64,000 nucleotides of DNA from Bacteroidales bacterium (GTDB taxonomy: Bacteria; Bacteroidota; Bacteroidia; Bacteroidales; UBA3824): assembly GCA_016286055.1 (NCBI GenBank), contig JAEERW010000006.1, positions 205,939 to 269,938 on the forward strand, read 5' to 3'. The number at the start of each line of letters is the position of its first letter. Position 1 is the first letter of the stretch. Positions 43,644 to 56,216 of the stretch are shown piece after piece. The translations under genes and the position numbers were made by a program. Under the pieces are notes generated by a model. The model had not been told where the DNA came from, did no database searches, and saw only the letters and a program-made list of their open reading frames with translations.

Positions 43644-44654
43644 ATGCAAACCGAAAGAATCATCCTCCGTCCTTGGCAGGAATCAGACGCCGAGGCTTTA
43701 TACAAATATGCAAGCAATCCCGAAGTGGGACCCCGCGCAGGTTGGCCTCCGCACAAAAGCGTTGAGGACAGTCTCGATATCCTCCACAAATTTTTGATCA
43801 GCGAGCGCAATTGGGCTGTGGTGCTCAAAGAGACCGGCGAACCGATTGGCTGTGCAGGCTACCTCACCGCCGGAAATTCCAACCTGAAATTGGCTGACGA
43901 CGAGTGCGAAGTCGGCTATTGGATTGGTCAGCCGTATTGGAATCAAGGCATCTGCACCGAGGCTATGAAACTTGTGGTTGATTACTGTGTCAACGTCAAA
44001 GGTTTCAAGACTTTATGGGGCGGTTACTTCCCCGAAAATCCCGCCTCGGGCCGTGTGATGGAAAAAATCGGCTTCATCCCCACCGGCGAAGAAATCACCT
44101 GTGATACGCTTGCAATTGGCGTGGAAAAACGTGCAATAGTGATGAAGTTGACACCAAAAACCACCGCCAAATCACTTGTAGTCATCGACTTACAAAACGA
44201 CATCACCAAGCATTACAAAGATATAATCGACAATGTCAATGCCGCAATAGATTGGGCGCAGAATCAGGGAATGTACATTGTGTATATCCAACATCACAAC
44301 ACTACACCCCTCGTGCGCACGTTCAAAGCCGGAAGTAAAGGCGCGGAACTTGTTCCCGAAATGAAGATTGTTTCCAATAATATTTTCATCAAGACCAAGG
44401 GTAACGCCCTCACGAGCAAAGAATTCGCCGACTTTATCGCCGCCAACCACCTCAACGAGTTTTACATTGCCGGAGCCGACGCCACCGCCTGCGTAAAAGC
44501 CACCTGCTACAATATGCGCAAAGCCAACTACACCGTCCACGTAATCTCCGACTGCATAACCACTTACGCCCTCAACAAACTCCCCGAAATGATAGATTAT
44601 TACAAAAGCAAAGGCTGCGAGGTGAAGACGTTGAAGGAGTATCAGGGGGAGTGA
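43644..44654 (+). CDS. Fusion of a RimJ-type GNAT acetyltransferase and an isochorismatase-like hydrolase
   Basis: One continuous 336-residue frame. Residues about 1-170 are a GNAT_3/RimJ-like acetyltransferase (TERIILRPWQESDAEALYKY, VGYWIGQPYWNQGICTEAM, RVMEKIGF). Residues about 175-336 are a cysteine hydrolase of the isochorismatase family with its full triad: Asp in LVVIDLQND, Lys in FIKTKGNAL, Cys in GADATACVKAT. Both halves look intact with no stop or frameshift at the joint. The substrates are unknown; nicotinamidase-like or amide hydrolysis is one option for the second half. Confidence 0.85.
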   Translation: MQTERIILRPWQESDAEALYKYASNPEVGPRAGWPPHKSVEDSLDILHKFLISERNWAVVLKETGEPIGCAGYLTAGNSNLKLADDECEVGYWIGQPYWNQGICTEAMKLVVDYCVNVKGFKTLWGGYFPENPASGRVMEKIGFIPTGEEITCDTLAIGVEKRAIVMKLTPKTTAKSLVVIDLQNDITKHYKDIIDNVNAAIDWAQNQGMYIVYIQHHNTTPLVRTFKAGSKGAELVPEMKIVSNNIFIKTKGNALTSKEFADFIAANHLNEFYIAGADATACVKATCYNMRKANYTVHVISDCITTYALNKLPEMIDYYKSKGCEVKTLKEYQGE

Positions 44655-44807: not shown

Positions 44808-45035
44808 ATGAAAGAACTCAGTCAACTGTCGCAATATGTAAAATCGATGCGCAAGCGATACAACCTCACGCAAGAAGATTTGTCGATGAAATCGGGTGTG
44901 GGACTGCGGTTTGTGCGCGATTTGGAGCAAGGCAAAAAGACCCTCCGTATGGACAAAGTAAACCAACTTTTGCGGCTGTTCAACACCGAATTAGGCGTGG
45001 TGCAGATGGAAAGAGAAATAATTGACGAAGAATGA
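44808..45035 (+). CDS. hipB: HipB-like XRE transcriptional regulator/antitoxin
   Basis: This 75-residue protein is one XRE helix-turn-helix: VKSMRKRYNLTQEDLSMKSG, then VGLRFVRDLEQGKKTLRMDKV. It belongs to the y4mF/HipB group found before HipA-type kinases. It overlaps the next gene by ATGA. Repeated GGTATAA half-sites in its promoter are natural operators. Confidence 0.88.
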   Translation: MKELSQLSQYVKSMRKRYNLTQEDLSMKSGVGLRFVRDLEQGKKTLRMDKVNQLLRLFNTELGVVQMEREIIDEE

Positions 45036-45352
45036 GAAAGGGAAATGTATATTTTCGCGACAAGGTTGCCGGAGAGATAATCGAAGATGATAACGGCTAC
45101 ACATTCAGATACTTAAATGAGTATTTGAATCAATCTGATGCGGAACCCATAAGTCTGACATTTCCTCTCCGTGAGACTCCTTTTGTGTCTAAAACCTTAT
45201 TCCCTTTTTTCGACGGATTAATTCCCGAAGGATGGCTGCTCAATATCGCCGTAAACAATTGGAAAATAAACGCAAACGACAGATTTTCGCTGTTGCTTAC
45301 TTGCTGCAAAGACTGTATCGGCGCTGTGGGCGTTGAGGCTACAACTAATTAA
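45032..45352 (+). CDS. hipS: HipS-like protein (detached HipA N-terminal subdomain)
   Basis: The 106-residue protein matches only the N-terminal HipA subdomain: VYFRDKVAGEIIEDD, ISLTFPLRETPF, FFDGLIPEGWLL, RFSLLLTCCKDCIGAVGVE. It ends in its own TAA, 13 bp before the kinase gene. In E. coli O127 HipBST the equivalent HipS is the antitoxin that blocks the HipT kinase. The clean ends and size argue for a real gene, not a broken hipA. Confidence 0.85.
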   Translation: MRKGNVYFRDKVAGEIIEDDNGYTFRYLNEYLNQSDAEPISLTFPLRETPFVSKTLFPFFDGLIPEGWLLNIAVNNWKINANDRFSLLLTCCKDCIGAVGVEATTN

Positions 45353-45365
45353 TAATAAATGAATT

Positions 45366-46310
45366 ATGGCAAAATGTCTGTATTGTTACCAAGAAACCGA
45401 CGGAGAAGATTTTCATCCCAAATGTGCTAAAAAAATATTTGGCACAACCAAAATTCCGATATTGCCATATACTCGGCAAAACATTGGCGACCTTGCCACA
45501 GAAATCATCAAGAGCCGGACCACAGTTACGGGTGTGCAGGCAAAACTCTCTATGGAACTGTCGAAAGGCGGAAAAAATCTGCCCGACAGATTCACAATTG
45601 TAGGGCTGTGGGGCGGATATATTTTAAAACCAAAATCCGACAAATATCCCTTTCTCCCCGAAAACGAAGACCTCACAATGCACCTTGCCGAAATTGCAAA
45701 AATAGAAACCGTACCGCATTGTCTCATAAGGTTTTCCGATGGAGAATTGTCATATCTCACCCGCAGAATCGACCGCGACCTGTCGGGCAAAAAATATCTA
45801 ATGGAGGATGCTTGTCAATTGTCGGGTCGAATGTCGTCTGACAAATACAAATCGTCGTACGAAAACATTGCAAAACTGATAAAAAAATATTCGTCAGTGC
45901 CTCTGCTTGATGTTACCAAATTTTGGGAGATAGTGGTTTTCTCTTGGATAACAGGCAACTCTGATATGCACTTAAAGAATTTTTCGCTAATTAGTTTTGA
46001 ACCAAACATTTATAACCTTTCGGCAGCGTACGACCTCCTCAACGTTCATCTTGTAATCAACGACAATGAAGAACTTGCCCTCACACTCGACGGCAAAAAG
46101 AGCAACATCAAGCGTCAAAATTTTGTTAACGCAATGACTAACACCGGATTAGATTCCAAAACTATCGACAACATATTCAATAAATTTGTCAAAATAGCAC
46201 CCAAATGGACCGCCTTTATCCAAAATAGTTTTCTACCCGACTCTATGAAACAGGCTTATATTCAAACAATTGAGGATAATCTAAAAATCTTTTCCCATCC
46301 CACCCTCTAA
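45366..46310 (+). CDS. hipT: HipT-like serine/threonine kinase toxin
   Basis: The 314-residue HipA-type kinase lacks the N-terminal subdomain. It starts with a zinc-knuckle-like segment (CLYCYQ ... HPKCAKKIFG), followed by the ATP loop TTVTGVQAKLS, ESVPHCLIRF-like sheet region, catalytic loop TGNSDMHLKNFSL (Asp and Asn) and the metal-binding AAYDLLNV. In E. coli HipT the loop carries Ser57-Ile-Ser59; here the same place (residues 53-55) is Thr-Val-Thr. HipT phosphorylates tryptophanyl-tRNA synthetase in E. coli, but the target here is unknown. Confidence 0.87.
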   Translation: MAKCLYCYQETDGEDFHPKCAKKIFGTTKIPILPYTRQNIGDLATEIIKSRTTVTGVQAKLSMELSKGGKNLPDRFTIVGLWGGYILKPKSDKYPFLPENEDLTMHLAEIAKIETVPHCLIRFSDGELSYLTRRIDRDLSGKKYLMEDACQLSGRMSSDKYKSSYENIAKLIKKYSSVPLLDVTKFWEIVVFSWITGNSDMHLKNFSLISFEPNIYNLSAAYDLLNVHLVINDNEELALTLDGKKSNIKRQNFVNAMTNTGLDSKTIDNIFNKFVKIAPKWTAFIQNSFLPDSMKQAYIQTIEDNLKIFSHPTL

Positions 46311-47054: not shown

Positions 47055-48005
47055 ATGAATAGAAAAACAGTAGAAAACGCAACAGAACTAATAGGAGGCA
47101 CACCGCTGCTCAGGCTCAACAGAATTGCCAAGGCAGAAAAACTTAAAGGTTCGGTGCTTGCCAAACTCGAAAGTTTTAACCCCGCACGTAGCGTAAAAGA
47201 CCGCGTGGCGCTATCTCTGATTCAAGAGGCGGAAAAACGGGGACTCGTTGATAAAAACACCGTTATTATTGAACCCACAAGCGGCAACACGGGAATTGGT
47301 CTTGCAATGGTTTGTGCTGTAAGAGGTTACAAACTTATTCTTACTATGCCCGACTCAATGACCGTGGAGCGAAGAAACATTCTCCGCGGGCTCGGAGCCG
47401 AACTTGTGCTAACTCCCGCCTACGAGGGTATGCCCGGATCGATACGCAAGGCTAACGAATTGGCTCAACAATACGGCAAAGCCTTTATCCCTCAGCAGTT
47501 TGAAAATCCTGCCAACCCCGAAGCGCACCGCCGCACCACTGCCAAGGAAATTATCGACGATACCGACGGCAAGGTTGACATTTTGGTGGCAGGCGTGGGC
47601 ACAGGCGGCACTATCACCGGCACTGGCGAGGAGTTAAAAAAATATAACCCCGAAATCAAAGTGGTGGCAGTAGAACCGTATTCAAGCGCAGTGCTTTCGG
47701 GGCAAAAACCCGGTCCTCACCGCCTGCAAGGAATTGGCGCGGGATTTATCCCTAAAATCCTCAATACCAAGGTGTACGACGAGATATTCAGGGTAAAAGA
47801 CAAAGACGCATTCCAATGGGCAAGAAATATGGCTCAGCAAGAGGGTATTTTGGTTGGAATCAGTTCAGGAGCAGCACTTTACGCCGCTGTTGAAATAGCC
47901 AAACGCCCCGAAAACAAAGGTAAAAACATTGTAGTGATTCTGCCCGACACTGGCGACAGATATTTATCTACAACATTATATGCAAAAGATCCTAAAACAG
48001 TATAA
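47055..48005 (+). CDS. cysK: Cysteine synthase (O-acetylserine sulfhydrylase family)
   Basis: This 316-residue PLP enzyme carries NPARSVKDRVAL (Lys48 binds PLP), the TSGNTG substrate loop, GTGGTITG for the PLP phosphate, and ISSGAA. It adds sulfide, or sulfur from a thiocarboxylate carrier, to an activated serine. Placement before a ThiS-like carrier and a JAMM peptidase recalls the mycobacterial cysM-cysO-mec+ set, so a CysM-like role is possible. It heads the operon with the encapsulin. Confidence 0.93.
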   Translation: MNRKTVENATELIGGTPLLRLNRIAKAEKLKGSVLAKLESFNPARSVKDRVALSLIQEAEKRGLVDKNTVIIEPTSGNTGIGLAMVCAVRGYKLILTMPDSMTVERRNILRGLGAELVLTPAYEGMPGSIRKANELAQQYGKAFIPQQFENPANPEAHRRTTAKEIIDDTDGKVDILVAGVGTGGTITGTGEELKKYNPEIKVVAVEPYSSAVLSGQKPGPHRLQGIGAGFIPKILNTKVYDEIFRVKDKDAFQWARNMAQQEGILVGISSGAALYAAVEIAKRPENKGKNIVVILPDTGDRYLSTTLYAKDPKTV

Positions 48006-48010
48006 CAAAT

Positions 48011-48220
48011 ATGGCACAAATTACAGTTAACGGCAACAATCAGGAGGTAACACTTCCCCTGACATTAGACCAACTTATTACGCTCAACCAAGTGGCTAAT
48101 CCCGAAATGGTTAGCGTGCAAATCAACGACAACTTTATTGAACGCGAAAAATTTGGCTCAACCCAAATTTACGACGGCGATATAATTGATTTTCTTTATT
48201 TTATGGGAGGAGGAAGATAA
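48011..48220 (+). CDS. ThiS/CysO/MoaD-like sulfur-carrier protein ending GGGR
   Basis: The 69-residue beta-grasp protein (ITVNGNNQEVTLPL, GDIIDFLYFMGGG) is 5 bp after cysK. The C-terminus is Gly-Gly-Gly-Arg, not a bare Gly-Gly. Carriers must end in Gly-Gly to be adenylated, so the terminal residues probably have to be trimmed; the JAMM peptidase of the same operon is an obvious candidate, as in QbsE/QbsD. Confidence 0.85.
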   Translation: MAQITVNGNNQEVTLPLTLDQLITLNQVANPEMVSVQINDNFIEREKFGSTQIYDGDIIDFLYFMGGGR

Positions 48221-48222
48221 TT

Positions 48223-49032
48223 ATGTTCGATTTTACCGAAGAAGAGTTAAACCGCTATTCGCGCCATATTCTGCTCAAAGATGTGGGCGTGGAAGGTCAG
48301 GAAAAAATCAAAAACGCCAAAGTTTTGGTTGTAGGCGCGGGCGGATTGGGTTCGCCGGTGATTCTCTACCTTGCTGCGGCTGGCATAGGCACAATAGGCA
48401 TTATCGACGGCGACGTGGTGGATATCAGCAACTTGCAGCGTCAGGTAATACACACCACTGCCGACATCAACCGCTACAAAGCCGAATCGGCAAAGGAGAA
48501 AGCCGAAAAAATTAATCCTCACGTAAAGGTGGTTATTTATAAGGATTTCTTACGTGCCGAAAACGCACTTGATATTATAAAAGATTATGACTTTGTGGTA
48601 GACGGCACAGATAATTTTCCTGTAAAATTTCTTATCAACGACGCCTGTGTAATGGCAGGAAAACCATTCAGCCACGGCGGAATCCTCAGGTTCGACGGGC
48701 AGACTTTTACCCACAAGCCGGGATGCGCCTGCTACCGCTGCATCTTCAATGCTCCGCCGCCAAAAGACTTAGTACCAACGTGTTCGCAAGCCGGAGTGCT
48801 TGGTGCAATTGCCGGAATGTTGGGCACAATTCAAGCCGCCGAAGTGCTTAAATACTTTACTGGCGCGGGCGAACTGCTCACCGACAAACTGCTGACTTTC
48901 AACGCTAAAACTATGGATTTTAGAAAAATCAACGTCCATCGTCGCGACAATTGCCCTATTTGCGGCAAAAAACCCACTATCACCGAACTTATCGACTACG
49001 AACAAGCGGCTTGCGACCTCACAAATCATTAA
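48223..49032 (+). CDS. ThiF/MoeB/HesA-type E1 adenylyltransferase
   Basis: The 269-residue enzyme starts with the family segment YSRHILLKDVGVEGQEKI. It then has the ATP-binding VVGAGGLGSPV, DGDVVDISNLQRQ, the conserved DGTDNF, and two zinc-binding cysteine pairs (CACYRC and CPICG). It should adenylate the C-terminal glycine of the ThiS-like protein encoded 3 bp upstream, so a thiocarboxylate can form. It lacks the rhodanese domain some homologs carry, so sulfur must come from another protein, perhaps TusA/DsrE or the desulfurase of this operon. Confidence 0.92.
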   Translation: MFDFTEEELNRYSRHILLKDVGVEGQEKIKNAKVLVVGAGGLGSPVILYLAAAGIGTIGIIDGDVVDISNLQRQVIHTTADINRYKAESAKEKAEKINPHVKVVIYKDFLRAENALDIIKDYDFVVDGTDNFPVKFLINDACVMAGKPFSHGGILRFDGQTFTHKPGCACYRCIFNAPPPKDLVPTCSQAGVLGAIAGMLGTIQAAEVLKYFTGAGELLTDKLLTFNAKTMDFRKINVHRRDNCPICGKKPTITELIDYEQAACDLTNH

Positions 49033-49036
49033 TACA

Positions 49037-49522
49037 ATGGAAGATACACCAAAGAAAAAACTTTCGCTCATAGCATTTTCGGGCGAATTCGACAAACTTA
49101 CCGCTGTATTCACACTTGCCACAGGAGCGGCTGCCGTGGGATACGAGGTAAACATATTTTTCACCTTTTGGGGATTGGATGCCATTAAGCAAAAACGTGG
49201 CAGAAGTTTCGTAGGCGGAAGTTTCCTCACCAAAATTTTCGGTTTTATGATGGGCGGTTTAAAAGCCACTCCCACAAGCCGTTTCAACTTTTGGGGAATA
49301 GGTCCGAGAATTTTCCGTTCGCTTATGCGCAAAAACAATGTGGCAACCCTTGAAGAACTTGTGGAGGCGGCTACTGCGCTCGGTGTCAACCTCTACGCCT
49401 GCGAAATGGCTATGCACGTGCTCGGGCTCAAACAGTCGGACTTTATTCACGAGGTTAAGGACACTCTCGGCGTGGCTTCTTTCCTCGAAATCTCCGAAGG
49501 CGGAAGAACGATGTTTATTTAA
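49037..49522 (+). CDS. DsrE/DsrF-like (DsrE2) sulfur relay protein
   Basis: The 161-residue protein has the DsrE2 pattern: KLSLIAFSGEFDKLTAVFTL, a membrane-like FGFMMGGLKA segment, and the conserved Cys in NLYACEMAMHVLGL that carries persulfide in related proteins. It is separated by 4 bp from the E1 gene. In dissimilatory sulfur oxidisers DsrE-type proteins hand sulfur to TusA; a TusA-like gene follows here. Confidence 0.85.
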   Translation: MEDTPKKKLSLIAFSGEFDKLTAVFTLATGAAAVGYEVNIFFTFWGLDAIKQKRGRSFVGGSFLTKIFGFMMGGLKATPTSRFNFWGIGPRIFRSLMRKNNVATLEELVEAATALGVNLYACEMAMHVLGLKQSDFIHEVKDTLGVASFLEISEGGRTMFI

Positions 49523-49591
49523 TGCATAATTCATAATGCATAATTCATAATTATCAATTCATAATTCGTAATTCATAATTCGTAATTAAAA
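49519..49591. repeat. Short tandem CATAATT-type repeats
   Basis: About nine units of (A/C)ATAATTC or close variants lie between the DsrE-like and TusA-like genes. A shorter relative, with CATAATG units, lies at 55495-55527, so the two mark both sides of the locus. Confidence 0.7.
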
Positions 49592-49593
49592 AA

Positions 49594-49818
49594 ATGGCAA
49601 CACACACATTAGATATAACCAAAGAACACTGCCCGATGACGTTTGTAAAAACCAAACTGAAACTTGCGCAGATAGCCGAGGGCGACATTCTTGAAGTGCT
49701 CCTTACCGAAGGCGAACCGCTCAACAATGTGCCAAAATCTGCCAAAGAGCAGGGCTACAATGTTTTGAGCGTTGAACACGTGGACGGCAATATTCACAAA
49801 GTAACTATAAAAAAATGA
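49594..49818 (+). CDS. TusA-family sulfur carrier (CPMT variant)
   Basis: The 74-residue TusA-like fold begins TLDITKEHCPMTFVKTKLKL. The persulfide Cys is kept but the motif is CPMT instead of the classical CPxP. TusA proteins carry sulfane sulfur from cysteine desulfurases to acceptors. It overlaps the JAMM gene by ATGA, so the two are made together. Confidence 0.88.
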   Translation: MATHTLDITKEHCPMTFVKTKLKLAQIAEGDILEVLLTEGEPLNNVPKSAKEQGYNVLSVEHVDGNIHKVTIKK

Positions 49819-50213
49819 TAACAATTACCCCCGAGGCATATAATTCGGTATTGGCTCAGGCACAGGGCGATGTTCCCAACGAATCGTGCGGTTATCTTTT
49901 AGGTACTGATAAAGAAACTGTTACCGAAAACTACCCGATGACCAACATCGACCATTCGCCCGAACATTTCAGTTTCGACCCCAAAGAGCAGTTTGCGGCA
50001 ATCAAATACGCCCGCAGCAAAGGTCTTGTGGTTGTGGGCAATTGGCACAGTCATCCCGCCACACCGTCGCGACCCTCGGAAGAGGACATCCGCCTTGCTT
50101 TCGACCCAAACATACTCTACTTTATACTCTCGTTGGCAGGCGAAAAACCTGTGTTTAACGCATTCAAAATTGCCGACGGAAAAGTAATAGAAAAAACAGA
50201 ATTATATCACTAA
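49815..50213 (+). CDS. JAMM/MPN+ zinc metallopeptidase (Mec+/QbsD-like)
   Basis: The 132-residue domain has the complete JAMM set: Glu in NESCGYLLG, and WHSHPATPSRPSEEDI giving H-x-H and S-x2-D for zinc. In Mycobacterium the related Mec+ frees cysteine from CysO-cysteine; in Pseudomonas QbsD trims the tail of a ThiS-like protein. Either role fits the ThiS-like protein ending GGGR in this operon. It starts in the stop codon of the TusA-like gene and is 17 bp before the encapsulin gene. Confidence 0.9.
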   Translation: MITITPEAYNSVLAQAQGDVPNESCGYLLGTDKETVTENYPMTNIDHSPEHFSFDPKEQFAAIKYARSKGLVVVGNWHSHPATPSRPSEEDIRLAFDPNILYFILSLAGEKPVFNAFKIADGKVIEKTELYH

Positions 50214-50230
50214 TTAAATCTTATAAAAAA

Positions 50231-51670
50231 ATGGCAGACAGCAACATTCAGCGCAGTATCACCACTGCTACCGCAAGAAAACTTGCAGACACAACCAAAA
50301 CCCCGCCGCAGATGGGGTCGATTACCCCGAGGATACTTTTAAAACTCCTTCCGTGGGTGCAGGTGCAGAGCGGCACATACCGCGTTAACCGCACAAAAGT
50401 AGAACTTAAAAAGGCAGAACGTATTGAAATTCAATACTTCGACGGCGTTCCAAGTTTCACGGCCAAAAACCTCCGTGCAATTCCGCTATTCGCCAACATC
50501 GACGCCGAAATTGTTTCCGACCTTGCCCGCAACTTTGTTCCCGTTGATGTTAAGCGTGGCAAAAACCTTATAAATCAGGGCAAAGACAAGCAGAAATTTT
50601 TTATCGTGGCAAAAGGTCAGGCAGAAGTTATTTCCACTGGTACTCACGGCGAGGAACTCCGCATCGCACTCCTCGGTTCGGGTGAGTATTTTGGCGAAGC
50701 CGACCTTCTAAGTGCTGCTGATTCAACAGTTTCGGTTAGGGCTGTTACCGACTCGGTTTTCCTTCAATTGGAAACTCCCGTTTTGGAAAAACTCATCAAA
50801 GAGAAACCAAATTTCCGCGAACAGTTTAACAATGCCGTTGACGACCATCTCCGCCTAAAAGCCACCGTCAACGACCACGGCGAAAAACATATCGACCTCG
50901 TTAGCGGTCACGAAGAGGACAACATTATTCCCGAAACCTACATCGACTACGAGGAGAACCCAACCGAATATTCGCTCAACACTTTGCAGACCGTGGTTCG
51001 CGTTCACACACGTGTAAGCGACCTCTACAATCTGCCTTACAACCAATTAGAAGAGCAACTCCGCCTTTCGATCGAAAGCATCAAGGAGCGTCAGGAATGG
51101 GAACTCATCAACAACAAGAAGTTCGGACTTCTTGCTCAGGCGGCTCCCGGCTACAAAATCAGCACACGTTACGGCGCACCCACTCCCGACGACCTCGACG
51201 AACTGCTCGCGCTCGTTTGGAAAGAGCCCGCATTCTTTATCGCCAACCCCCGCGCCATTGCAGCATTTGAGCGTGAGTGCACTTGGAGAGGCGTTCCCCC
51301 TGTGGCTATCGACCTCTTTGGCACTAAGGTTATCACTTGGCGTGGCGTTCCGATTATCCCCTCCGACAAGGTGGAAATCAAAGGTCAGTACCTCACCAAC
51401 CGCGGCGTAGGCACCACCGAAATTATCCTTGTGCGCACCGGCGAAAAAGAACAAGGCGTTGTGGGTCTTCATCAGTCGGGCATTCCGGGCGAAATTGCTC
51501 CTTCGCTTTCGGCTCGTTTGATGGGCTTAGACCAATACGGCGTGGCAAGTTACCTGCTCACAAAATACTTCTCGCTCGCAAGCCTCACCGACGACGCTAT
51601 CGCAGTTTTGGAAAACGTTGAGGTGGGATACTACCACGATTATCAACACAGAAACCAAATTGAAAAATAA
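50231..51670 (+). CDS. Family 2B encapsulin shell protein with cyclic-nucleotide-binding domain
   Basis: The 479-residue protein combines an N-terminal arm and HK97-type E-loop (about 1-85), a Crp-like cNMP-binding domain at about 85-205 (AIPLFANIDAEIVSDLARNF, GSGEYFGEADLLS), and the rest of the HK97 fold (about 235-479; EWELINNKKFGLLAQAAPGY, PAFFIANPRAIAAFERECTW, VGLHQSGIPGEI). This is the family 2B encapsulin layout. Such shells enclose enzymes; family 2 often packages cysteine desulfurases and stores elemental sulfur. The next gene, a desulfurase, starts within the stop (TAATG). No phage genes are nearby. Confidence 0.92.
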   Translation: MADSNIQRSITTATARKLADTTKTPPQMGSITPRILLKLLPWVQVQSGTYRVNRTKVELKKAERIEIQYFDGVPSFTAKNLRAIPLFANIDAEIVSDLARNFVPVDVKRGKNLINQGKDKQKFFIVAKGQAEVISTGTHGEELRIALLGSGEYFGEADLLSAADSTVSVRAVTDSVFLQLETPVLEKLIKEKPNFREQFNNAVDDHLRLKATVNDHGEKHIDLVSGHEEDNIIPETYIDYEENPTEYSLNTLQTVVRVHTRVSDLYNLPYNQLEEQLRLSIESIKERQEWELINNKKFGLLAQAAPGYKISTRYGAPTPDDLDELLALVWKEPAFFIANPRAIAAFERECTWRGVPPVAIDLFGTKVITWRGVPIIPSDKVEIKGQYLTNRGVGTTEIILVRTGEKEQGVVGLHQSGIPGEIAPSLSARLMGLDQYGVASYLLTKYFSLASLTDDAIAVLENVEVGYYHDYQHRNQIEK

Positions 51671-53112
51671 TGAACGGTATTGACTTGAATGCTTTTCAAT
51701 TCGGAGGACTTTCGGCCGACGACAGGGCTTTGTTCGACGGGGTGATTTCAAAATATTTCCCCGAAGACCGAGCCTCTAAGCCGTCGGCTACAAAGCCGCC
51801 CGAACGCAGAAAATGCCTTTTGAAAGACGACGGGTTTGGTATCGGAATTCCTGAAACTCAGTTGGTTAAAAACCTCCATTACGACGAGGTGGATACTCTC
51901 AACTCTGAGGAAATCCGCAAGCAATTCCCGATTCTTAATCAAAAGGTAAACGGGCACGACCTCATTTGGTTCGACAACGGTGCCACCACGCAAAAGCCTC
52001 TGCGCGTAATCGACGGATTGAGCGAGTTTTACAAAACCGACTACTCTAATATCCACCGTGGAGCGCACACCCTTGCCGCCCGTAGCACCGATAAATACGA
52101 GGAGGCTCGCCAAAAGGTAGCCGACTTTATCAACGCCCCCAACGCAGAAAACATTGTGTTTGTGCGCGGTACAACCGAAGGTATCAATCTCATTGCCAAA
52201 ACTTTTTCGGAGAAATACCTCCTTCCGGGCGACAACGTGATCGTTTCTACCCTCGACCACCACGCCAACATTGTGCCTTGGCAGCAAGAGTGTTTTAAGC
52301 ACAATGCCGAACTACGTGCAATTCCTATCGACAAGAATGGCGACCTCAATCTCACTGAGTTTGAACGCCTTATCTCTCCCAAAACCAAGTTTATATCCGT
52401 TGGTCACGTCAACAATACTTTCGGCACTATCAACGATGTAAAGTCTATAATCGACCTTGCCCACTCGCACAACATTCCCGTGCTGTTAGACGGTGCGCAG
52501 TCGGTGGCTCACACCAAGATAGACGTGCAGGAATTAGACGCTGATTTCTTTGTTTTTTCGGGACACAAGATTTACGGACCATCGGGCATAGGCGCGGTAT
52601 ACGGCAAAAAAGAGTGGCTCGAAAAACTTCCACCGTGGCAAGGCGGAGGCAATATGATTAAGGATGTTACCATCGAAAAAACCGAGTTTAACGTTCCTCC
52701 GGCGCGTTTTGAAGCAGGCACGCCAAACATTGCCGACGCTGTGGGTTTGGGCTATGCCTTAGACTTTGTAAAAAGCGTGGGCATACACAACATCGAACAT
52801 CACGAGCACGACCTCACCGAATACGCCCGCACGCAAATAGCAAGGATTCCGGGCATTACGCTCATTGGAAATCCCAAAAACCGTGTAAGCGTGGTTTCTC
52901 TCGATGTCGCCGGCATTCCCGCTCCCGAAGTGGGACAGATGCTCGACAAGGAGGGAATAGCCGTTCGTGCCGGACACCACTGCGCACAACCCGCTCTCAG
53001 GGCGTTGGGCTATGAAATGAGTGTTCGTCCCACCTTTGCAGTTTACAACACCCGCGACGAAATAGACGCACTTGTAACCGCCTTGGACAAGATTTCGCGC
53101 GGAGCAAGGTAG
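51670..53112 (+). CDS. SufS-type cysteine desulfurase, predicted encapsulin cargo
   Basis: The 480-residue protein has a normal SufS core of about 400 residues from about 75 onward: FDNGATTQKPLRVID, HANIVPW, the PLP Lys in FSGHKIYGPSG, and the active Cys in RAGHHCAQP. It is preceded by an extra 75-residue segment with a Pro/Lys/Arg-rich disordered stretch (RASKPSATKPPERRK). Such N-terminal extensions direct desulfurases into family 2 encapsulins. It turns cysteine into alanine plus persulfide sulfur. It is the last gene before the strong terminator. Confidence 0.93.
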   Translation: MNGIDLNAFQFGGLSADDRALFDGVISKYFPEDRASKPSATKPPERRKCLLKDDGFGIGIPETQLVKNLHYDEVDTLNSEEIRKQFPILNQKVNGHDLIWFDNGATTQKPLRVIDGLSEFYKTDYSNIHRGAHTLAARSTDKYEEARQKVADFINAPNAENIVFVRGTTEGINLIAKTFSEKYLLPGDNVIVSTLDHHANIVPWQQECFKHNAELRAIPIDKNGDLNLTEFERLISPKTKFISVGHVNNTFGTINDVKSIIDLAHSHNIPVLLDGAQSVAHTKIDVQELDADFFVFSGHKIYGPSGIGAVYGKKEWLEKLPPWQGGGNMIKDVTIEKTEFNVPPARFEAGTPNIADAVGLGYALDFVKSVGIHNIEHHEHDLTEYARTQIARIPGITLIGNPKNRVSVVSLDVAGIPAPEVGQMLDKEGIAVRAGHHCAQPALRALGYEMSVRPTFAVYNTRDEIDALVTALDKISRGAR

Positions 53113-53280: not shown

Positions 53281-54144
53281 ATGAATAAAGAACTTTCAAA
53301 TAATCATCCTTGCTTTGGACCAAATGCCAACAACCTCGGACGCATTCACCTGCCGGTAAGTCCTGCGTGCAATATCGGTTGCCGATTCTGCCACAGGGTA
53401 TTAAACGACACCGAAAACCGTCCGGGCGTTACGGCTAAGGTCATCACTCCCGAACAGAGCATCGACGTACTCAAAAAAGCATTGAAACTCTGCCCTCAAA
53501 TACGTGTAGCGGGCATTGCAGGTCCGGGCGACACTCTTGCTACAAATGCAGCATTAGAGACATTCCGCCTTGTGGGGAAAGAGTTTCCGCAGTTGCTTAA
53601 ATGTATGAGTACCAATGGATTGCTCCTCAACGAAAAAGCCGACGAAGTGATTGACGCAAAGATAGATTCGCTCACCGTAACAGTCAACGCCGTTGACCCC
53701 GAAATTGAGGCACAACTCAATAAATTTGTAATCTACCACGGCAAAAAATACGACGCTCTCGAAGGTGCAAAAATCTTGATTGCCAATCAGTTGGAAGGTA
53801 TACGCAAAGTGGCAGCAAGCGGAATTACAGTAAAGGTAAACACCGTTCTTGTGCCGCGTATCAATGGCAATCACATTGGCAAAATCGCAGAAACCGTTTC
53901 AAAACTTGGAGCAACGATTTACAACATTATTCCGCTAATTCCAACTTTTGAACTCAAAGACGAAAAAGCACCGTACTGTTTTCAGATAGAACAAGCACGC
54001 AAAGATGCCGAAAAATTCATTGGAGTTTTCCGTCATTGCAACCGTTGCCGCGCCGACGCTGTGGGCGTACCCGGAAAGTCAGAATTTTCAAAAGAAGTTT
54101 ACAACCAAGTTTTTGCCGCAAATGACACATTCTCCCACGCATAA
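53281..54144 (+). CDS. NifB-like radical SAM protein
   Basis: The 287-residue protein is close to the core of NifB. It has the N-terminal HPCFGPNANN, SPACNIGCRFCHR with the radical SAM cysteines C30, C34 and C37, NRPGV, GIAGPGDTLA, MSTNGLLLN and the C-terminal HCNRCRADAVG. NifB fuses two 4Fe-4S clusters, with a carbide from SAM, into the 8Fe NifB-cofactor of nitrogenase. No nitrogenase gene is seen here, so it may make another FeS product or serve sulfur metabolism. It overlaps a NifX-like gene by 23 bp. True NifB often carries that NifX domain fused. Confidence 0.85.
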   Translation: MNKELSNNHPCFGPNANNLGRIHLPVSPACNIGCRFCHRVLNDTENRPGVTAKVITPEQSIDVLKKALKLCPQIRVAGIAGPGDTLATNAALETFRLVGKEFPQLLKCMSTNGLLLNEKADEVIDAKIDSLTVTVNAVDPEIEAQLNKFVIYHGKKYDALEGAKILIANQLEGIRKVAASGITVKVNTVLVPRINGNHIGKIAETVSKLGATIYNIIPLIPTFELKDEKAPYCFQIEQARKDAEKFIGVFRHCNRCRADAVGVPGKSEFSKEVYNQVFAANDTFSHA

Positions 54145-54496
54145 CAAGACTATTTTCAGGGTTGCAGTGGCATCTACCGACGGCTATACCGTTGATACTC
54201 ACTTTGGTAGAGCGTGCGATTTCTACATTTATCAATATTTGGTAGATGAATGGATTTTTGTGGAAAAACGCACCGTCAACCCCGTTTGTCAAGATGGTCA
54301 ACATTCCGTAGCGGCAATGCAGAAAAACGTGACACAATTCAAAGATTGTCAATACATTGTGGCATCCAAAATCGGCACGGGCGCAATGTCCACAATCCAA
54401 TCACAAGGCATTGTAGCAATGGCACTTCCGATGGACATCAACGACGCTTTGGAGAAGGTTTTCACCTATCACGAGATACAGAATTTGTTTGAATAA
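54122..54496 (+). CDS. NifX/NifB-C-terminal-like (dinitrogenase FeMo-cofactor biosynthesis) protein
   Basis: The protein has about 124 residues and the NifX/NafY-type fold: FRVAVASTDGYTVDTHFGRACDF near the start and CQYIVASKIGTGAMSTIQSQG later. I chose ATG 54122 because family homology begins there; an in-frame ATG further upstream would only encode sequence overlapping the NifB-like gene. Such proteins bind FeS or FeMo-cofactor precursors. With the NifB-like gene it forms a split NifB-NifX module. Confidence 0.85.
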   Translation: MTHSPTHNKTIFRVAVASTDGYTVDTHFGRACDFYIYQYLVDEWIFVEKRTVNPVCQDGQHSVAAMQKNVTQFKDCQYIVASKIGTGAMSTIQSQGIVAMALPMDINDALEKVFTYHEIQNLFE

Positions 54497-54606: not shown

Positions 54607-55497
54607 ATGACACATCTCAACGAATTAGAAGCGGAATCAATTTATATCCTGCGCGAAGTGGCTGCGCAGTTTCAACGTCCGGCAATTTTGTTTTCGGGCG
54701 GAAAGGATTCCATTGTGGTAACATACTTGGCTTACAAGGCGTTCTATCCTGCCAAATTGCCGTTTCCGTTGGTGCATATCGACACGGGACACAATTTTCA
54801 AGAGACTCTCGACTATCGCGACGAACTTGTAAAACGTCTCAATGCCGAACTCATTGTAGGCTCGGTTCAAAAGAGCATCGACACCGGTCGCGTAAAGGAA
54901 GAAACAGGTTACAACGCATCGCGCAACGCCCTGCAAACCACCACTTTGCTCGATACTATTGAGGAATACAAATTTGACGCCTGCATAGGCGGAGCACGCC
55001 GCGACGAGGAGAAAGCCCGCGCCAAGGAACGTATTTTTTCGCACCGCGACGAATTTGGACAGTGGAACCCCAAAAATCAACGTCCCGAACTTTGGAACAT
55101 CCTCAACGGCAAGAAAAATATGGGCGAACATTTCCGCGTGTTCCCCATCTCAAATTGGACCGAAATGGATGTTTGGCAGTATATTTACCGCGAAAACATT
55201 CCGCTGCCGAGCCTCTATTACACCCACACCCGCAAATGCTTTTTCCGTGATGGACAGTGGCTTGCCGCCGAACCGTGCATCAAACGCCGTCCCGAAGAAG
55301 AGGTGGTAGAAAAGCAAGTCCGCTGCCGCACCATTGGCGACATAACTTGCACAGGCTTAACGCTTTCCACCGCTCATTCTGTTGAGGACATCATTGCCGA
55401 AACAGCCGCAACCCGCGTAACAGAGCGCGGCGGACGTGCTGACGACAAACGCAGCGAAACGGCAATGGAAGACCGCAAAATAAATGGGTATTTTTAA
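54607..55497 (+). CDS. cysD: Sulfate adenylyltransferase subunit 2 (CysD-like)
   Basis: The 296-residue ATP-pyrophosphatase of the PAPS-reductase family carries the PP-loop FSGGKDSIV near residue 30, HIDTGHNFQETLDYRD, GGARRDEEKARAKER, NWTEMDVWQYI and the C-terminal RCRTIGDITCTG, all typical of CysD. CysD joins the GTPase CysN to activate sulfate to APS. The cysN gene that normally follows is absent; a repeat and the restriction-modification region begin instead. It may work with a distant CysN or have another partner. Confidence 0.9.
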   Translation: MTHLNELEAESIYILREVAAQFQRPAILFSGGKDSIVVTYLAYKAFYPAKLPFPLVHIDTGHNFQETLDYRDELVKRLNAELIVGSVQKSIDTGRVKEETGYNASRNALQTTTLLDTIEEYKFDACIGGARRDEEKARAKERIFSHRDEFGQWNPKNQRPELWNILNGKKNMGEHFRVFPISNWTEMDVWQYIYRENIPLPSLYYTHTRKCFFRDGQWLAAEPCIKRRPEEEVVEKQVRCRTIGDITCTGLTLSTAHSVEDIIAETAATRVTERGGRADDKRSETAMEDRKINGYF

Positions 55498-55581: not shown

Positions 55582-56186
55582 TTGATTTGAGATTTTCCTT
55601 TCTCAGTAGTAAAATATTTTTGTGTCGGATTTTTTGGCGTCTCAGGTACTGTCATCTGCAAATAACCATACGAAACCAAATCTTTGATATATGATTTTAA
55701 ATTTTTGGTTTGATATGTTATGTCCAATTGCTCCAATATTTCGCGAGCATTTTTCGGTTCAACACACAATGCCAAAACACATCTTTGTTTGTCAGACAAA
55801 GTAACAGGGTTGGTATCAGGGTTAGTAACAGGGTTGGTAACAGTGTCAGTAACAGTGTCAGTAACAGTGTCAGTAACAGTGTCAGGGTTAGTGTCAGGGT
55901 TAGTGTCAGGGTCTGCGTATGTTATTGAAAATGAGAAATGCTGTCCGTTTTCTATTATAATTTGATAATCTTTATAATAGATAGGAGCATATTTCAAAAT
56001 GTTTCGAGTGCCTGAGCCCAAATCTTCCACCCAATCAAACTCTCGGAAAACCTTAACTATAAGCGGATTTTTGGTGTAATTACCTAATTCTTTGATATTT
56101 ACAGTTCCCTCGTTCATTGTTGGAACAAGTCGCGTTACATTTTTGGTAACAACCCTGTCTTTGAAAATCTCTACAAAATGTAACAC
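55578..56186 (-). pseudogene. C-terminal remnant of an AAA_4/AlbA_2-type putative transcriptional regulator
   Basis: The 202-residue frame corresponds to the C-terminal part of divergent-AAA (RecG-like) proteins: EIFKDRVVTKN, YTKNPLIVKVFREFDWVEDL and GSGTRNILKYAPIYYKDYQI. A repetitive Asp/Thr/Val linker and a winged-helix end (REILEQLDI) follow. The N-terminal AlbA_2 and ATPase half is missing; the frame begins at a GTG inside repeat copy B and ends inside copy A. It is likely a fragment left by recombination, though expression of a winged-helix protein cannot be ruled out. Confidence 0.6.
55801..55920. repeat. 12-bp tandem repeats in the remnant gene
   Basis: Units such as GTAACAGTGTCA and variants with GGGTTAG encode alternating DTVT and DTNP/PVTN peptides. 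The four central units are almost identical, suggesting recent slippage. Confidence 0.75.
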
Positions 56187-56216
56187 TTTCTGTTATGTTT
56201 TGTAGAGATTTTTTAT
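56169..56216. repeat. 48-bp hairpin repeat, copy B (terminator-like)
   Basis: Same orientation as copy A and 635 bp from it. The three differences keep the 17-bp stem as G-U or A-U pairs. It lies 5 bp beyond the hsdS stop codon. Confidence 0.75.

Follow-up and report, generated by a model that had tools for sequence, protein, structure and literature searches.

A family 2B encapsulin shell gene and the cysteine desulfurase gene adjoining it are embedded in an operon for a ubiquitin-like sulfur carrier on the forward strand of a 64,000-nucleotide stretch of a Bacteroidales genome (GenBank assembly GCA_016286055.1, contig JAEERW010000006.1, positions 205,939 to 269,938), hereafter called the window. 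The two parts of this arrangement, the family 2B shell with its desulfurase and the class 4e carrier cluster, are known already; what is new is that they are joined. In a search of the texts of open-licence papers, none was found naming an encapsulin together with the term 'sulfur carrier protein', and encapsulins are not mentioned in the 15 papers listed out of 192 that a looser search returned; such a report may be in print elsewhere. We propose, from the gene content, that the shell and desulfurase would bank sulfur taken from cysteine, and that DsrE2 and TusA relay proteins together with the carrier route would return it to cysteine or homocysteine, a reading to which we assign a probability of roughly 0.45. 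The operon offers a full candidate set for the sulfur acceptor from a desulfurase encapsulin and, because it names these candidates, makes the question of how sulfur would leave the shell testable with a few purified proteins. If true, the proposal would link encapsulins with ubiquitin-like sulfur carriers, two separate fields, and would imply a sulfur buffer in gut bacteria.

The eight-gene operon

Eight open reading frames (ORFs) between positions 47055 and 53112 of the window all lie on the forward strand, with successive gaps of 5, 2, 4, 71, -4, 17 and -1 bp. The draft genome to which they belong amounts to 4.18 Mb in 36 contigs. Gene names were taken from Pfam and NCBIfam scans of the window ORFs, curated cut-offs being quoted after the scores; together with the ORF list, these scans bear out the coordinates and names that an earlier inspection of the letters alone (the sequence-only reading) had given for the eight genes. 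The operon opens with cysK, encoding the acceptor enzyme O-acetylserine sulfhydrylase (47055..48005; TIGR01139, 459 bits, cut-off 351), followed by genes for a ThiS-type sulfur carrier with the C-terminus FMGGGR (thiS, 48011..48220; TIGR01683, 52.6 bits, cut-off 37.5), a MoeB/ThiF-type E1 adenylyltransferase without rhodanese domain (thiF or moeB, 48223..49032; PF00899, 278 bits; PRK05690, 277.7 bits, cut-off 266), a DsrE2-like persulfide relay protein (dsrE2, 49037..49522; PF13686, 135.7 bits), a TusA-like persulfide relay protein (tusA, 49594..49818; PF01206, 77.6 bits) and a JAMM (JAB) metallopeptidase (jamm, 49815..50213; PF14464, 85.5 bits). The family 2B encapsulin shell protein (50231..51670; NF041163, 558 bits, cut-off 400; PF19307, 370 bits; PF00027, 59 bits) and a SufS-type cysteine desulfurase, its likely cargo (51670..53112; TIGR01979, 540 bits, cut-off 475), complete the series.

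Conservation of the neighbourhood

Conservation was assessed in 80 named Bacteroidales loci, the best 80 by shell similarity of the 401 relatives that a search with 22 aligned shells retrieved. Judged by the shell gene, the window is closest to uncultured Bacteroidales that come mostly from the ruminant gut, and the shell of a yak rumen locus (L020) is 100% identical to that of the window. Within 6 kb of the shell gene, the desulfurase was found in 79 loci, dsrE2 in 77, tusA in 76, cysK, thiS and thiF in 71 each and jamm in 70, the full eight-gene set being present in 64. Among the 54 long loci, defined as extending at least 4.5 kb before and at least 3.5 kb after the shell, dsrE2, tusA and the desulfurase are found in every one, thiS, thiF and jamm in 51, cysK in 49 and the full set in 46. 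Since the genes recur near the shell across the 80 loci, their grouping is not due to chance. The sequence-only reading had suggested a search for the same eight-gene order as a check: among the 64 complete loci, 34 follow the order of the window (one of them with a second cysK), 23 carry thiS-thiF-jamm after the desulfurase and five carry it before cysK, the block being inverted in one locus and split in another. Compared with the window, the shells of the 80 loci have a median identity of 83%, against 69% for cysK and 59% for thiS, a spread that does not favour the idea that the operon as a whole moved recently from one host family to another. A LuxR-type response regulator is encoded near the operon in 33 of the 80 loci (that of L078 was scanned) and is a candidate regulator.

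The acceptor enzyme varies. Within 6 kb of the shell, a gene resembling those of O-acylhomoserine sulfhydrylases (metY-like) is found in 62 of the 80 loci, cysE in 17 and patB in 16, and an acceptor sulfhydrylase is present in all 54 long loci, both cysK and metY-like in 44, cysK only in five and metY-like only in five. The one metY-like protein scanned fell below the cut-off of each of 25 listed models out of the 43 that it matched. The window operon has no metY-like gene, the nearest relative in its genome being 33% identical. Given the frequency of the metY-like gene near the shell, homocysteine is a real alternative product. This bears on the closed circuit from cysteine to cysteine drawn by the sequence-only reading, which has to be corrected, such a loop being futile unless storage keeps its steps apart in time or homocysteine is made instead.

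The same counts lend weight to an explanation that dispenses with storage, in which the shell would isolate the desulfurase and persulfide would pass straight to TusA/DsrE2 and the carrier and on to O-acylhomoserine, in a carrier-based transsulfuration leading to methionine. Such a route would sidestep the futile loop, is in keeping with the metY-like genes, including those of the five long loci without cysK, and finds a parallel in class 4e operons, which include O-acetylhomoserine sulfhydrylase according to part of the text of PMC1779556. The window operon, devoid of a metY-like gene, argues the other way, as do the five long loci in which cysK is the only acceptor. A family 2A relative is also said to store elemental sulfur, in work attributed to Benisch in 2024. 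On balance, we consider direct donation of this kind a serious contender that is nevertheless rather unlikely. It recalls the protein-thiocarboxylate methionine route of Wolinella, reportedly described by Krishnamoorthy and Begley in 2011, with which the window and its relatives would share the carrier, the E1, the JAMM protein and, in many relatives, a sulfhydrylase of the homocysteine-forming type; the window operon differs from it in having CysK and no such sulfhydrylase, and in its shell and desulfurase.

The encapsulin shell

The shell protein comprises an N-arm, an inserted cyclic nucleotide monophosphate (cNMP)-binding-like domain at about residues 80-200 and an HK97 domain at about residues 223-474. 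In the profile scans, PF00027 covers residues 106-191, ahead of PF19307 at residues 209-466 and behind an N-arm shared with SrpI, and the protein joins the SrpI-like HK97 domain to the inserted domain of family 2B, as had been recognized from the letters. Its best solved match, 9bje (E 1.8e-112), extends over the full length including the inserted domain. The shell would be one-component, since it is the single PF19307 match in the genome; a genome search for family 1 encapsulins gave no match. Over the 80 relatives, median identity to the window is 92% for the HK97 part and 68% for the inserted domain. A tree built on the HK97 domains of 37 shells groups the window with 2B shells of Bacteroidales and of the Chlorobium family in a clade of 24 rows (100/99), apart from 2A shells and from the sampled actinobacterial 2B shells; this tree does not settle the order of events.

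It had been suggested that the cNMP domain could gate the pores of the shell, a suggestion that does not stand as the default. An alignment with cGMP kinases sets a serine of the window shell at what we take to be the position of the phosphate-binding arginine in the cyclic-nucleotide cassette; the shells of the relatives have serine (78/80) or alanine (2/80) at this position, and the Gly-Glu of the cassette is kept in all 80. According to the part of PMC12407261 considered here, a lack of cyclic-nucleotide binding has been demonstrated for the inserted domain, which sits above the two-fold pores; a size of about 28 nm is also given there for a family 2B shell. Cyclic-nucleotide gating is rejected as the default on the loss of the arginine and on this report, a decision against which two matches to class III nucleotide cyclases in the genome weigh. 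Gating by some other ligand is possible.

The desulfurase and its extension

In accordance with the way in which family 2 cargo is recognized, a SufS-type desulfurase gene adjoins the shell gene, its start overlapping the stop of the latter by 1 bp, and the enzyme is likely the cargo of the shell. The model of the family 2A cargo desulfurase, NF041166, reaches 687 of the 800 bits that its cut-off demands, over model positions 216-623 only; as the match begins only at residue 68, the catalytic domain fits this model and the extension does not. The catalytic domain of the window protein is preceded by an extension of about 79 residues (about 1-79). This extension was compared within a set made of the window and 79 relatives, from which L088 was excluded because the start of its core was not recognized (n = 79), and extension length ranges from 77 to 162 residues in this set.

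Two motifs recur in the extensions. The first, FDGVISKYFPE in the window (51733..51765, residues 22-32), belongs to a helix ending in K-Y-F/C-P-E and may bind the shell; it matches 67 of the 79 extensions, against an average of 0.015 in shuffled sets. The second, FGIGIPE (51835..51855, residues 56-62), matches 77 of the 79, window included, against an average of 0 in shuffled sets, and one more row reads FGLGIPE. These counts express conservation and are not independent proof, because the patterns were written after the sequences had been viewed and the rows are related. A looser pattern for motif 1 and the pattern for motif 2 gave no match in six cargo desulfurases of other lineages. A structure model of the desulfurase (mean predicted local distance difference test, pLDDT, of 68.0), used solely for the motif 1 helix and the low-confidence linker, has a helix at residues 16-29 and values below 50 at residues 35-74, which suggests that the linker is largely disordered. 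The cargo-like extension ascribed to this enzyme by the sequence-only reading holds up in both the model and the motif counts. The active-site pattern of the desulfurase is found in 76 of the 80 relatives' rows, the misses being L027, L081 and L095, which are short rows, and L096. Elsewhere in the genome, a second strong PF00266 frame (411 aa, 485.6 bits) may, judging by its profile match, serve the housekeeping desulfurase role.

The papers on related encapsulins are drawn on here for part of their text. PMC8346489 (Nat Commun 2021) counts 199 family 2B desulfurase operons in nine phyla, names serine O-acetyltransferases and rhodaneses as their most enriched accessories and proposes a rhodanese interacting with the outside of the shell as a possible acceptor of the sulfur; two-component 2B operons with a desulfurase are also listed in PMC12407261. 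The window resembles the systems of PMC8346489 in its shell with an inserted cNMP-binding-like domain and in its SufS-type desulfurase with a probably disordered N-terminal extension, and differs from them in its thiocarboxylate carrier set with DsrE2, TusA and JAMM, of which there is no mention in the part of that paper considered here. With the family 2A SrpI/CyD system of Synechococcus elongatus (eLife 2021, PMC8049743), the window shares a cysK near the shell and desulfurase genes and a probably disordered N-terminal domain, whose disordered counterpart there loads the cargo. The SrpI shell, in contrast, has no inserted domain, rhodanese and cysE take the place of DsrE2/TusA and the carrier, and the motif patterns of the window cargo gave no match in CyD.

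Carrier and relay proteins

The carrier is the sole PF02597 match found in the genome. All 71 carriers of the 80 named loci end in GGG followed by at least one residue, so the carrier would likely need trimming, for which the JAMM protein is the obvious candidate. The HxHx10D motif of the latter is intact in the window (HSHPATPSRPSEED) and in 69 of 70 relatives, the exception (L087) hitting its contig end. No rhodanese match was found for the E1 in the Pfam scan; all 71 relatives with at least 60% identity have its paired CxxC. The DsrE2-like protein scores 69 bits with the NF047629 DsrE2 model, below its cut-off of 210, and its cysteine, within ACEMAM, is found in 76 of 77 relatives, the remaining match stopping at that place (a narrower first pattern for this cysteine had matched 68 of 78). 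The CPx[PT] motif of TusA is present in all 76 relatives. Family matches and intact motifs alike uphold the relay and carrier genes named beforehand. The carrier may have its only role in thiamine or molybdopterin synthesis; the JAMM gene is linked to it, and no second PF02597 match was found in the genome.

The cysM model gives 303 bits with the window CysK, below its cut-off of 394, and by these profiles the acceptor is of the CysK type, not of the CysM type. This matters for the carrier route, which the sequence-only reading had described as complete and of the CysO type. Carrier, E1, JAMM and cysteine synthase are all present; the CysO assignment does not hold, because an E1 without rhodanese, the presence of TusA and a CysK acceptor assign the set to class 4e and not to the mycobacterial CysO/CysM/Mec system. 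In the part of PMC1779556 (Genome Biol 2006) consulted, class 4e groups ThiS/MoaD, JAB, an E1 without rhodanese and SirA (TusA), with sulfite reductase, ATP sulfurylase and O-acetylhomoserine sulfhydrylase as other members. The carrier, JAMM, E1 without rhodanese and TusA of the window agree with this description, to which the window adds shell, desulfurase and DsrE2 in an operon without sulfite reductase. The mycobacterial system, row 4d of the same source, likewise has a carrier, an E1, a JAMM protein and a cysteine-synthase-type enzyme; the window differs from it by CysK in place of CysM, the E1 without rhodanese, TusA/DsrE2 and the residues after the carrier GGG.

Carrier operons without a shell

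In a sample of 295 genomes of the order, PF19307 is above its cut-off in seven, an eighth match being weak and containing internal stops. The DsrE2 subfamily (at least 66% identity) occurs in all seven shell genomes versus four full-length copies and one fragment (in G259, 72 residues, 61% identity) in the other 288. Eleven genomes of this sample have full-length DsrE2 matches of at least 60% identity, the next reaching at most 43%, and seven of these eleven have a shell. Within the genus of the window, the shell is above cut-off in five of 18 genomes and cut by a contig end in one more, and DsrE2 is found in nine: all six with a shell gene versus three of the 12 without.

The genes thiS-moeB-dsrE2-tusA-jamm lie together in three shell-less relatives, G228 (L105), G139 (L106) and G235 (L104), with no shell or desulfurase match within the fetched stretches. 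In the fourth shell-less genome with DsrE2, G285 (L107), the locus is near the contig start and dsrE2 alone is visible. The carrier operon exists by itself, since these relatives keep it. Directly after jamm, L105 encodes a sulfite reductase fused to TusA. The gene following jamm in L106 encodes a sulfite reductase only in its first half, which stops 34 bp short of the contig end, and a different contig holds a match to the remaining half. L104 has a sulfite reductase-TusA fusion upstream of thiS. In the window, the shell-desulfurase pair occupies the slot after jamm where L105 and L106 hold sulfite reductase. The shell-less loci approach class 4e, as outlined in part of PMC1779556, by their sulfite reductase and, in L105, by a pyridoxal phosphate enzyme of cysteine/methionine metabolism belonging to the O-acetylhomoserine sulfhydrylase family. 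Their carriers have one or more residues after GGG in L104 and L106, and stop at GGG in L105.

The window operon has no sulfite reductase, and the only match in its genome to the sulfite reductase-TusA fusion (SiR-TusA) at E 1e-20, a relative with a C-terminal TusA at G000:C26:158202-160532 (L161 8196-10658), is found some 45 kb ahead of the window. Because the window genome keeps this fusion elsewhere, sulfite reductase was not cleanly replaced. At the same threshold, SiR-TusA matches nine of the 295 genomes, some partially. Among genomes with full-length DsrE2, it is found in three of four without shell (G139, G228 and G235, not G285) and in two of seven with shell (G000 and G080); it also matches genomes having neither shell nor DsrE2, such as G047 and G107. 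A strict swap of sulfite reductase for the shell is not upheld at genome level by these proportions, the numbers being too small and some assemblies incomplete. In the shell locus of G080 (L111), the genes found are cysK, thiS, dsrE2, tusA, shell and desulfurase, and a sulfite reductase gene lies about 16-21 kb away with MoeB-like and JAMM-like ORFs, the latter two identified by eye.

A bolder version of the proposal may be built on the shared slot. A carrier operon of sulfate assimilation would have taken the shell and desulfurase into the place of sulfite reductase, giving rise to a sulfur bank paid out through the ubiquitin-like ThiS, with DsrE2/TusA docking at the shell and a sulfhydrylase forming cysteine or homocysteine. 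We regard this combined scenario as tentative and on the doubtful side.

Distribution and recurrence

In a draw of 395 genomes from the phylum, PF19307 is above cut-off in 61, of which 54 belong to the Chlorobium family of green sulfur bacteria. Their shells are mostly family 2B-sized frames whose nearest named proteins come from Chlorobium or Chlorobiaceae. Shells were also listed for Leptospiraceae and Planctomycetaceae. In nine loci of this family (L149-L157), the shell is accompanied by desulfurase and cysK in all nine and by cysE in seven; four also have a thiF match and three a thiS match, several kb off and, in L155, beside thiG-like and thiH-like ORFs seen by eye. The extension measures about 234 residues in one desulfurase of the family and about 328 in another. 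LuxR-type regulators are also encoded in these loci (L149 6508-7203, L151 6380-7033 and L155 13067-13720; that of L151 was scanned, the others were named by eye), and the sulfur oxidisers of the Chlorobium family with a desulfurase encapsulin merit separate attention.

Desulfurase encapsulin and carrier route meet independently a second time, in a different phylum and with a shell of a different subfamily, on the Aliarcobacter cibarius plasmid pACIB (L103 857-11371). A family 2A shell and its cargo desulfurase stand there beside genes for a rhodanese, a MoaD/ThiS carrier ending in GGI, an E1, a JAMM protein, two cysteine synthases and cysE. The MoeB-like E1 is 58% identical to that of the window, and the cluster is broken up by IS110 and IS5 transposases. 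Carrier genes are not listed for four other plasmid loci (Kitasatospora 2B, Azospirillum 2A, Synechococcus 2A and Methylosinus 2A) in the PLSDB gene tables, which are incomplete.

Proposed mechanism and its standing

In the mechanism that we put forward, a helix motif in the N-terminal extension would probably load the desulfurase into the shell. By analogy with family 2A work, the enzyme would remove sulfur from cysteine and deposit it in the shell interior as persulfide or elemental sulfur. When sulfur is needed, DsrE2 and TusA would take up sulfane sulfur at the shell. Following the chemistry of their families, the JAMM protein would trim the residues beyond the carrier glycines and the E1 would adenylate the carrier, which would then receive sulfur as a thiocarboxylate. 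CysK in the window, or CysK and/or O-acylhomoserine sulfhydrylase in the relatives, would form cysteine or homocysteine, and the product would be released by the JAMM protein. The analysis shows the genes, their intact motifs, their linkage across relatives and a carrier operon that stands without shell or desulfurase; each step of the sulfur flow is inferred. With respect to the sequence-only reading, which had already joined shell, relay and carrier in one circuit, the observation is confirmed and the interpretation partly supported.

Several points weigh against this mechanism. Particles, loading, sulfur storage and hand-off are each predicted from the genes, and the structure model of the shell, built from 22 close relatives, has a mean pLDDT of 49.5, with values of 23-48 in the HK97 part, too poor for use. 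The sample of 80 loci is biased, having been picked by shell similarity and consisting of related rows. The carrier module is separable, as thiS, thiF and jamm are all missing from the 6 kb on either side of the shell in three of the 54 long loci. DsrE2 occurs without a shell match both in the genus (G004, G011 and G017, drafts of 130-480 contigs) and in the order, and the nine Chlorobium-family loci gave no match to dsrE2, tusA or jamm. The usual substrate of CysK is free sulfide, and use of a carrier is known for the CysM type, to which it does not belong. Finally, the carrier may instead be fed by sulfite reductase, since the genome holds a SiR-TusA fusion.

Some of these points would also fit a more modest explanation, in which a sulfur-limitation regulon would control two neighbouring modules together, the shell with its desulfurase and the carrier route, without physical or chemical hand-off between them. 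The mobility of thiS-thiF-jamm, found upstream, downstream or inverted and missing in three long loci, agrees with it, as do the nine Chlorobium-family shells devoid of dsrE2, tusA and jamm, and the part of PMC8049743 used here reports that sulfur starvation induces the Synechococcus family 2A system. Mere neighbourhood accords less well with the presence of dsrE2 and tusA within 6 kb of the shell in all 54 long loci, and with the renewed association of shell and carrier genes in Campylobacterota on pACIB. We consider it unlikely.

Neighbouring genes

Downstream of the desulfurase, on the same strand, follow a NifB-like radical SAM protein gene (53281..54144; TIGR01290, 257.8 bits, below the cut-off of 343.65) and a NifX-like protein gene (54122..54496; PF02579, 63.6 bits; ORF 54005-54496, with a start chosen inside), whose membership of the system is unsure in both cases, and a cysD-like ORF (sulfate adenylyltransferase subunit 2, 54607..55497) named by eye from its translation. 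The last has 90% identical matches in L029 and L041, where they lie away from the shell operon. The strongest terminator-like hairpin, of 20 pairs, is at 56165-56211; since the same-strand run goes on through these three genes and this hairpin comes only after them, the transcript perhaps holds more than eight genes. The promoter scan of the window does not extend to promoters of the Bacteroidota type.

This proximity raises the question whether the cluster supplies sulfur for a metal cofactor built by the NifB-like and NifX-like proteins. Besides the two genes behind the window desulfurase, weaker nifB and nifX matches are found about 1.6-3.1 kb past the desulfurase in the distant G080 locus (L111 2745-4316). 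Across the 80 loci, however, nifB lies within 6 kb in one only, the near-identical L020, and a nifB-nifX pair in L026 is about 8.7 kb away, behind a second cysK; a cofactor role is highly improbable.

On the other side of the operon, HipB/HipA-like genes were recognized by eye at 44808-46310 of the window, the HipA-like part being made of two ORFs (45032-45352 and 45366-46310). Further upstream, a single ORF at 43644-44654 resembles, also by eye, a GNAT acetyltransferase fused to an isochorismatase-type hydrolase.

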